Below the pieces are notes generated by a model. It had not been told where the DNA came from. It saw only the letters and a program-made list of their open reading frames with translations, and did no database searches. Positions 45,075 through 49,641 of a stretch of DNA of 64,000 nucleotides are shown here, piece by piece (position 1 is the stretch's first letter; each line of letters opens with the position of its first letter). Made by a program: the position numbers and the translations under genes. Source of the stretch: Sulfurospirillum sp. UCH001 (lineage in GTDB: Bacteria > Campylobacterota > Campylobacteria > Campylobacterales > Sulfurospirillaceae); the NCBI RefSeq assembly GCF_001548035.1, contig NZ_AP014723.1, positions 1,488,001 to 1,552,000 of the forward strand, in the 5' to 3' direction.

Positions 45075-46412
45075 TTATTTACCTAAGCAGAAGTTACTAA
45101 ACATTTTCTCTAAAATCTCATCACGCTCAAAAGCTGTCGTGATAGAAGAGATACTCGAAATTGCTTCATTGATATGGAAAGCAAAAAGCTCTAACTCCCC
45201 TTCTCCTAGGAGTTGATAAGAACTTTGTACATTTTCATATGCCTGTTTTACGGCATCGATTTGGCGCATTGATGTAAGCATAAGGGTATCTTCAACAGCC
45301 GTTTGATCTAAAATTGCTTTAAGCCTATCCGTAAGTTCACGACTATGTGTTTGACACGAAAGAGCAATAAAATCTTGATCTAAATGCTGTGTATCAAAGT
45401 GGTTAGGAAGGTCTATTTTATTTAAAACTGTAAGAATTTGTTTTGAAGATGCATATTTTTGGAGCAAAGAAAGCATCTCTTCATCTTCATGGTCACAAGG
45501 CTTGCTATTATCAAACATTGCAATAACAATCTCAGACTCTTCAATCGCTGCAATAGAACGCTCAATTCCTATTTTTTCAATCACATCATTTGCTTGTCTA
45601 ATACCAGCAGTATCAACAATGCGAACCAGATGTGAACCAATGCGTAGTTCTTCTTCGATAGTATCACGAGTTGTACCTGCTATATCACTAATGATAGCCC
45701 TATCATAACTTAAGAGGTTATTTAAAAGAGAGCTTTTACCAACATTTGGTTTACCGACTATGGCAATTTTAAAACCATTGATCAATCCTTGTCTGCGCTT
45801 ACTACTTTCATATGTTTTAAAAAGTTCTTTAGCCAATACATCAAGTTTATCTTTGATTTTCTCAATCATATCAAGAGGTAAATCTTCTTCAGCATAATCG
45901 ATATTGACTTCAACAAAGGCAAGGATTTCTATCAGTAGTTCTCTAACATGTCCAACAAAGTCGCGAAGCTCACCTTTGAGTTGACGGGTTAACATTTTAG
46001 CAGCATCAACACTTTTTGTCTCAATAAGAGCGGCAATGGCTTCCGCCTCACTAAGATCAATACGACCATTTAAAAAAGCACGTTTAGAAAATTCACCAGG
46101 ATTGGCCAATCTTGCACCATGATGAAGAAGTGTTTCTAACACAAGTCCAGCAACAACACTACCACCATGGCATTGAAACTCGACGACATCTTCGGCAGTA
46201 AAACTGTGTGGCGCTTTAAAGTAAATAACAATCGCTTGATCAATAGCATCATTCAGTTTGTCATGTAAAAAGCTGAGTGTTGCAAGACGCGGAGTTAATG
46301 TCTCTTTTTTTGAGAGTTTTAAAGCCAAGGTAAGGGCATCGGGTCCACTTACACGAACAATCGCGATGGAACCGACCCCTGCACTTGTGGCAATCGCAGC
46401 AATAGTATCTAT
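45075..46412 (-). CDS. mnmE: tRNA modification GTPase MnmE, non-standard AUA start
   Basis: MnmE with MnmG modifies wobble uridine of tRNAs. The frame upstream of the TTG at 46328 encodes the normal family N-terminus, DTIAAIATSAGVGSIAIVRV, which belongs to the folate-binding domain. Only four codons (GAA AAA CGC ATA) separate an in-frame stop from that Asp, and none is ATG, GTG or TTG. ATA 46412-46410 fits: AGGA lies seven bases ahead, and it overlaps the jag stop as ATAG. This gives 445 residues with GTPase motif GKPNVGKSS and C-terminal FCLGK. Starting at TTG would delete essential sequence. Confidence 0.85.
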   Translation of the reverse strand: MDTIAAIATSAGVGSIAIVRVSGPDALTLALKLSKKETLTPRLATLSFLHDKLNDAIDQAIVIYFKAPHSFTAEDVVEFQCHGGSVVAGLVLETLLHHGARLANPGEFSKRAFLNGRIDLSEAEAIAALIETKSVDAAKMLTRQLKGELRDFVGHVRELLIEILAFVEVNIDYAEEDLPLDMIEKIKDKLDVLAKELFKTYESSKRRQGLINGFKIAIVGKPNVGKSSLLNNLLSYDRAIISDIAGTTRDTIEEELRIGSHLVRIVDTAGIRQANDVIEKIGIERSIAAIEESEIVIAMFDNSKPCDHEDEEMLSLLQKYASSKQILTVLNKIDLPNHFDTQHLDQDFIALSCQTHSRELTDRLKAILDQTAVEDTLMLTSMRQIDAVKQAYENVQSSYQLLGEGELELFAFHINEAISSISSITTAFERDEILEKMFSNFCLGK

Positions 46413-47374
46413 GCGTTTTTCCTATTAAAATCGTTAACAACGATGAATTTACCACCATCTTTCCCTGACTTAATCCCAACGTATTTTTCAGGAAATTCTG
46501 TACGGAGTGCTTCAAGAGCAATTTTGATAAGAACACCATCTAAAATTTTGGTCTGTCCTTTACCACTGTTGCGAATACGCTCAATGACAGGAACAAGGTA
46601 TTTTTCGATCATCTCTTCTTGATTTTTCAAAAATTCAGCAATTTCAAGACGAATATTCAAACCATACTTGAGGTTAATCCAATTATAAAGCAAATAAGAG
46701 AGTGCCTTGTAACGATACCCTTCTTTTCCAATCAATAATGCTGCATCTTCTCCACTAAATTCAATTAAGATAGTGTCATCACTGTATTTAGAAACAAGAG
46801 GTGTATCTAACGTAAAACAGCTGTATTTAAAAAGGTTTTTGATTTGTAAACGTACTTCATCAATGATATCATTGATTTCGCGTTTTTCTTGATGAAAATT
46901 CTGATCAATCGCTGTTGGCGCAATAGTGTGTCTTGGCTCTTTTGCTGGAACAACTTTAGGTGTTTCACCCTTCACTTCTGCCTTTGGTGTTACAGGAGTT
47001 TCTTTAACGACCAATGGCTCAGGACGTTTATTTTCAGAAAATTCATTTTTCGAAAATTCTTTATTTCTATTTTTGTTGCGTCTATTTTTAGAACGGCGAT
47101 TACGATCTCTTCGTTCTTCGCCATTTTCTGTATCTGTTTCATGACGCTCATCTTCTTTACGTGAACTAACAGATTCTTTACGAACATGCTCTTCTTTAAA
47201 AGGCTTTGCGCCTTTTCGCTGCACTTCAATGATAGCACTTTTTTTGAAAAGCCCAAGGAATCCGCTTGAGCCATTTTGAATAATATTAATATCTAAATCT
47301 ACGACCGAACAAGACAACTCACTCGCCGCTTTGGAGTAAGCTTCTTGGAGTGTTGCTGCTTCTACTTTGATCAT
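46409..47374 (-). CDS. jag: Jag/KhpB RNA-binding protein
   Basis: Jag (SpoIIIJ-associated, KhpB) proteins bind RNA and affect division and envelope processes. The 321 residues start with a Jag-N domain (MIKVEAATLQEAYSKAASEL, with GFLGLFKKSA), then an Arg/Lys/Glu-rich linker (about 60-115), and a C-terminal KH-type domain with LLIGKEGYRYKALSYLLY and an R3H-like helix. It overlaps yidC by 4 nt and its stop overlaps the mnmE start. Confidence 0.88.
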   Translation of the reverse strand: MIKVEAATLQEAYSKAASELSCSVVDLDINIIQNGSSGFLGLFKKSAIIEVQRKGAKPFKEEHVRKESVSSRKEDERHETDTENGEERRDRNRRSKNRRNKNRNKEFSKNEFSENKRPEPLVVKETPVTPKAEVKGETPKVVPAKEPRHTIAPTAIDQNFHQEKREINDIIDEVRLQIKNLFKYSCFTLDTPLVSKYSDDTILIEFSGEDAALLIGKEGYRYKALSYLLYNWINLKYGLNIRLEIAEFLKNQEEMIEKYLVPVIERIRNSGKGQTKILDGVLIKIALEALRTEFPEKYVGIKSGKDGGKFIVVNDFNRKNA

Positions 47375-49306: not shown

Positions 49307-49641
49307 TCTTTAACACAGTTCAATTTTTTCATAGACCATATAATCCCTTTTTTAAGAGCATCATACGATATGTGATTGATCTTCTCTTTTGCTACAAAAA
49401 CATACACGCCATCATTTAAAGTGTGTTGAATTTCTAAAAAAATAGCCCGAAGTCGCCTTTTGGCTAAATTTCGCTTGATAGCATTACCGACTTTCTTGCT
49501 CGCCGTAAAGCCAACTCTTTTTGCTGTATCGTTATTGTAAAAGACTAAGGCACCATCAAAGTGCCATTTTTTAGCATGGTTATAAACGTATGAATACTCT
49601 CTCGTTGCCTTGAGAGTATCATAATCTTTTAAGCGGCCAAT
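49303..49641 (-). CDS. rnpA: ribonuclease P protein component, non-standard AUU start
   Basis: RnpA is the protein subunit of RNase P. The frame encodes [42 protein letters not shown] (RNR-type motif) and ends in CVKE, 112 residues in all. The frame has no ATG, GTG or TTG until residue 79. An in-frame TAG lies two codons upstream of ATT 49641, which gives [11 protein letters not shown], the usual length. AAAGG lies nine bases ahead. It starts within rpmH (13-nt overlap) and its stop overlaps the yidD start. A gene finder limited to the three common starts would miss it. Confidence 0.82.

Follow-up and report, generated by a model that had tools for sequence, protein, structure and literature searches.

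The mnmE gene of Sulfurospirillum sp. UCH001 almost certainly starts at an AUA codon instead of AUG, and the AUA overlaps the stop codon of the preceding gene, jag. The junction lies in the window, the whole 64,000-nucleotide stretch of DNA that was analysed, taken from a genome of 2.6 Mb in a single contig (G000). Translation from AUA is the best explanation of the sequence at this site, and we consider it very probable. Few conserved AUA, AUC and AUU starts have been documented in bacteria, and a gene finder limited to ATG, GTG and TTG will truncate or miss the proteins that use them.

The jag/mnmE junction and its conservation in the genus

Read directly on the - strand (reverse complement of 46400-46440), the 3′ end of jag is GAT TTT AAT AGG AAA AAC GCA TAG, and in the mnmE frame, which is -1 relative to jag, the same stretch reads TAG GAA AAA CGC ATA GAT ACT ATT (Table 1). 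GAA AAA CGC ATA are thus the only codons between the in-frame stop TAG and the conserved Asp-Thr-Ile of mnmE, and ATA is the sole plausible start among them. The ATA and the jag stop TAG have two bases in common (ATAG, 46412-46409, - strand), and an AGGA (46423-46420) precedes the ATA with a spacing of 7 nt. The first-pass annotation had already placed an AUA start of mnmE over the jag stop, within 46409-46425, and had described the same four codons and an AGGA seven bases ahead; the start site does fall in that interval, and the direct read agrees with the rest of the description.

Table 1. Features of the jag/mnmE junction and of rnpA (positions in the window)
Feature	Position	Strand	Basis
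ATA start codon of mnmE	46410..46412	-	only plausible start; ATA in 23/23 genus genes
jag stop TAG, overlapping the ATA as ATAG	46409..46411	-	direct sequence read
Shine-Dalgarno AGGA, formed by jag Arg codon AGG and Lys codon AAA	46420..46423	-	AGG invariant in 23/23
Stop TAG in the mnmE frame, four codons before the ATA	46422..46424	-	direct sequence read
mnmE (trmE), 445 codons from the ATA plus stop	45075..46412	-	only MnmE N-domain match of the genome
TTG at residue 29, first in-frame canonical codon, rejected as main start	46326..46328	-	TTG not conserved
jag, Jag_N and HP1451_C domains, ATG start	46409..47374	-	domain match
rnpA, read from a probable ATT start (49641-49639), last codons and stop excluded	49309..49641	-	no ATG/GTG/TTG at the conserved N-terminus

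The site was compared in 24 genomes of the genus; no match to mnmE was obtained in one of them (G020, 86% complete). The mnmE start codon is ATA in all 23 genomes with a match, which is the comparison that the first-pass annotation had proposed as a check, and in all 23 genes the jag stop lies at +1 of the ATA, giving an ATAG or ATAA stop-start overlap. The jag codon at -4 is AGG in every one of them, a codon that makes up 4.6% of the host Arg codons (788 genes of the genome). As its last codon, jag has GCA, ACA, TCA, CCA, AAA or CAA: the amino acid varies, and the third base is A in 45/45 ATA-start tree rows. This count is partly circular, as the rows were picked as ATA starts, although all family genomes outside the ATA count have a canonical start instead. 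No canonical mnmE start is conserved among the 23 genus genes, in which the first in-frame ATG, GTG or TTG ranges from residue 19 to residue 100.

Because the jag stop also fixes two of the three ATA bases, the conserved 'TA' alone is not independent evidence; such evidence comes from the first A of the ATA, the AGG, and the lack of an alternative start. Further, AUA, AUC and AUU also encode Ile, and swaps among them alone do not prove a start. A misread start codon, from sequencing or assembly, is suggested only by prior experience with odd starts and is practically negligible, as the same ATA is found in 23 genus genomes, including the complete S. diekertiae JPD-1 (L034) and S. cavolei UCH003 (L043).

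Beyond the genus, the ATA is replaced by ATC, ATG or GTG, at this position or right beside it. The gene shows the features of the bacterial AUA/AUC/AUU-start class: no AUG, GUG or UUG at the conserved N-terminus, an AUA in the place of Met1 with a normally spaced Shine-Dalgarno before it, and a codon that is kept in relatives and exchanged only for other start codons. Of the features of a termination-reinitiation pair, it has the stop-start overlap and lacks a canonical start within it (ATGA or TGATG).

The N-terminus of MnmE and alternative starts

The protein read from AUA matches the MnmE profile end to end, with Pfam TrmE_N beginning at position 1, and it carries the TrmE_N, GTPase and MnmE_helical domains and the C-terminal FCLGK of a full-length MnmE (TrmE) from Met1. 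In alignment, the AUA-encoded residue 1 falls on the Met of TrmE from T. maritima (1xzp). The N-domain has a single match in the genome, in which mnmG is also present.

The longest canonical mnmE ORF begins at the TTG 46328-46326, the codon that a standard gene finder would take first. Translation from this TTG, with the conservation upstream being a relic or something else, is very improbable. As the first-pass annotation had counted, it would delete 28 residues (including the AUA-encoded Met), and the AlphaFold2 model of MnmE (pLDDT 83.5), with strands spanning residues 4-9 and 17-22 and a helix spanning 26-34, shows that two strands and part of the helix would be lost, together with eight residues that are invariant across 27 relatives (T3, I4, A6, T9, G12, R20, S22 and G23). 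On NCBIfam NF003661, the AUA-start protein scored 385.6 bits and passed the cut-off of 380, while the TTG-start protein scored 355.3 bits and fell below it. In addition, an alignment of this genome with G003 over the 31 codons that lead to the first canonical one has 12 synonymous and 4 amino-acid changes, indicating that this stretch is translated. The TTG itself is found in only 11 of the 23 genus genes. Both objections that the first-pass annotation had foreseen, a misread ATG and a true start at the TTG, thus lose their footing, as the ATA recurs in relatives and the TTG is not a conserved codon.

A programmed -1 frameshift at the jag end would produce a Jag-MnmE fusion and leave mnmE without a start of its own, and both the -1 frame of mnmE and the G AAA AAC just before the jag stop of this genome would suit it. 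This explanation is nonetheless highly unlikely, as the slippery heptamer varies in relatives (AAAACC, AAACAA, AAAATTC, AAAGCT), no RNA structure beyond chance was found at the mnmE start that could stimulate slippage (fold z +0.67), and relatives have separate ATG or GTG starts of mnmE at the same place.

Initiation at the next AUU (codon 4, the Ile of Asp-Thr-Ile) instead of the AUA was also weighed and is quite improbable. AUU lies nearby and has been proven to start infC and, as cited in PMC13009471, pcnB; however, the AGGA would then sit 16 nt away, codon 4 is ATT, ATA or ATC depending on the genome and encodes an Ile that is conserved in all MnmE, including those with an ATG start, and the conserved A of the ATA would be left unexplained.

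Spread of the start across the order and other genes of its class

Across the order, 45 of 127 full-length MnmE rows have an ATA start, while most families start mnmE at ATG and some at GTG or TTG. The ATA start was found in the own family (f1), in several genera of family f7, and in single genomes of f22 and f8, the f8 case being less certain; on the MnmE tree it covers the Sulfurospirillaceae, gut Campylobacteraceae MAGs and another family. On this tree of 127 proteins, which is a quick tree with several weak forks, ATA needs at least 5 changes vs. a shuffled mean of 37, and Campylobacter, with its ATG start, branches beside the ATA-start gut Campylobacteraceae MAGs, inside a larger ATA-rich group. 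The simplest reading of the tree is that the ATA start is old and was lost later in some lineages. It would then predate the split of the Sulfurospirillaceae from their sister families, and would have been replaced by ATG in Campylobacter and by ATG or GTG in some family members.

In family f7, genus g35, mnmE (L126 and L128) apparently starts from an ATC that overlaps the stop of jag, giving TAATC and TGATC. Members of genus g3 of f1 (L115, L133, L114 and L120, with L046 alike) start mnmE from ATG or GTG at Asp-1, and an ATA still lies over the jag stop just upstream. A canonical start at Asp-1, gained with added codons, was found in L115, L133, L046, L114 and L120; in the last three it is a GTG, and an ATA stands two codons upstream over the jag stop, so that these could be snapshots of a start-codon replacement in progress.

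The AUA might be the start and yet persist as an evolutionary trap rather than for low expression, a possibility that concerns why AUA is used and not whether it is used, and that we hold to be less than even. In an ATAG overlap, a change of ATA to ATG turns the jag stop TAG into TGG, and TAG is present in 42 of 61 ATAR junctions. Consistently, Campylobacter has alternative ATGA junctions, and the five genes with a canonical start at Asp-1 gained it with added codons. However, the other 19 of the 61 junctions are ATAA, in which one change to ATGA gives an ATG and keeps the stop, and some of them already have a canonical start beside the ATA. ATAA genomes that have no canonical start and keep ATA are common (L013, L014, L060, L079, L082, L107, L118, L147, L172 and L174), and queA keeps ATA, ATC or ATT without any overlap. 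Such a constraint is a real alternative for part of the cases, but many ATAA genomes that have no canonical start could become ATGA and have not, which speaks for possible selection for AUA.

Other genes of this start class were sought by scanning 1.2 Mb of this genome vs. 1.2 Mb of G003 (952 orthologue pairs), counting only N-termini in which the first canonical codon comes after 12 or more codons. Four genes, mnmE, queA, rnpA and ftsK, have a translated N-terminus without ATG, GTG or TTG in both genomes, and at least three more genes of this genome besides mnmE seem to start at AUA, AUC or AUU. Most scan hits were discarded, being shadow frames, non-coding DNA that is conserved, or short segments immediately before an ATG. 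One candidate, a hemN-like gene at 1,516,647, was rejected because changes in its upstream stretch are mostly non-synonymous (3 synonymous, 5 non-synonymous), and infC was rejected because it appears to start at TTG here (L301, G000:C1 121515-121724).

In detail, the queA start is ATA in this genome (L254, G000:C1 near 1608109) and ATC in G003; across the genus it is ATA, ATC or ATT in 24/24 genomes (L254, L255-L277), never canonical at that place, and a GAGGA or AAGGA precedes the codon by seven bases. In most genus genomes, the stop of the gene preceding queA lies one codon upstream. For rnpA, the ATT lies inside the end of rpmH in 22/22 genus genomes, where it is also constrained by an rpmH Leu codon, and the first canonical codon follows about 80 codons in; a start at the ATT is probable. 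The ftsK gene (L214, G000:C1 about 1349395) appears to start at an ATC that is present in both G000 and G003, with AAAGGA upstream and about 40 codons without a canonical one. The annotated N-termini of all four genes in the genus need checking.

Three of the four genes act on tRNA. This grouping was noticed afterwards, among four genes from under half of the genome, and a tRNA-linked set of AUA/AUC/AUU-start genes is offered as a hypothesis only. A wider proposal is that a Sulfurospirillum gene set enriched in tRNA maturation (mnmE, queA, rnpA) is held at AUA, AUC or AUU so that its translation tracks IF3 activity or initiation capacity, with, in mnmE, an additional AUAG overlap at which the jag ribosome initiates on a near-cognate codon; we regard it as speculative and rather unlikely.

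Proposed initiation at the overlap and comparison with known systems

The fMet-tRNA(CAU) reads AUA with a third-position mismatch, and IF3 discriminates against AUA starts. In the mechanism proposed here for mnmE, Shine-Dalgarno pairing would hold fMet-tRNA(CAU) on the mismatched AUA, and IF3 discrimination would cause MnmE to be produced at a reduced rate, with an output below that of AUG. By analogy with the AUA efficiency measured elsewhere (PMC13009471), it is plausible that the AUA keeps MnmE low. A search for the initiator-type tRNA core found CAU at the tRNA-Met near 1,023,000 and none with UAU, under a strict pattern that a divergent second initiator could escape. A single TTATAA hit at 1,914,268 was considered as a special AUA-reading initiator and rejected, since it lies in an A+T-rich stretch where ARAGORN and the tRNA family search find no tRNA. 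As a separate observation on the tRNA genes, G000:C1 1857930-1868302 holds two near-identical blocks 5,853 bases apart, each with the same Ala/Ile tRNA pair, which look like rRNA operons in direct tandem.

Judged from the anatomy of the junction, mnmE is likely to be reinitiated after jag: ribosomes fresh from termination at the jag stop would supply much of the mnmE initiation, which would tie MnmE output to jag translation. Start and jag stop overlap by shared bases in 54 of 55 distinct junctions with AUA, AUC or AUU vs. 45 of 120 with canonical starts, although the junctions in this comparison are not independent events. The reinitiation put forward in the first-pass annotation is favoured by the overlap anatomy, but coupling to a preceding stop is not required for such starts, because queA, rnpA and ftsK use them without that overlap. 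A start class kept over a stop across several families lends itself to two questions: whether ribosomes at termination relax their choice of start codon, and whether AUA, AUC and AUU starts are an IF3-controlled set linked to tRNA maturation.

Conserved AUA or AUU starts are already known (infC, pcnB, ccpN), and mnmE is a well-supported addition of a new gene and a new phylum. In E. coli, infC starts at AUU, by which IF3 regulates its own synthesis, and pcnB also starts at AUU. In S. aureus, AUA starts of infC, ccpN and citZ are supported by Ribo-Ret or reporters, and AUA and AUU starts gave a reporter output of about 10% of AUG, with up to 30% for the ccpN AUA in rich medium (PMC13009471). 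The Borrelia pncA (bbe22) starts at AUU, and databases still list its protein cut to a later codon (PMC13398362). Stop-start overlaps with termination-reinitiation have been surveyed for ATG, as ATGA and TGATG (PMC6728339). A literature search, run outside most subscription journals, returned nothing on the start codon of mnmE in Sulfurospirillum, and AUA goes unmentioned in the Campylobacter Ribo-seq paper.

Compared with these systems, mnmE resembles infC (AUU in E. coli, AUA in S. aureus) in being a gene of the translation machinery with a conserved AUA or AUU start and a Shine-Dalgarno, while it differs in gene and phylum and in that its start overlaps the stop of the preceding gene. It shares a conserved start of the AUA/AUU class with the attenuating ccpN AUA and cvfC1 AUU of S. 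aureus; unlike them, it is an operon-internal, overlapping gene. With the AUU starts of E. coli pcnB and Borrelia pncA it has the low-efficiency start codon class in common, in a different gene and with a different codon. Like the coupled ATGA and TGATG pairs, mnmE has a start that shares bases with a stop and a Shine-Dalgarno inside the upstream gene; in contrast to these pairs, the overlap in mnmE and its relatives is built on AUA (AUAG or AUAA) or AUC (TAATC or TGATC).
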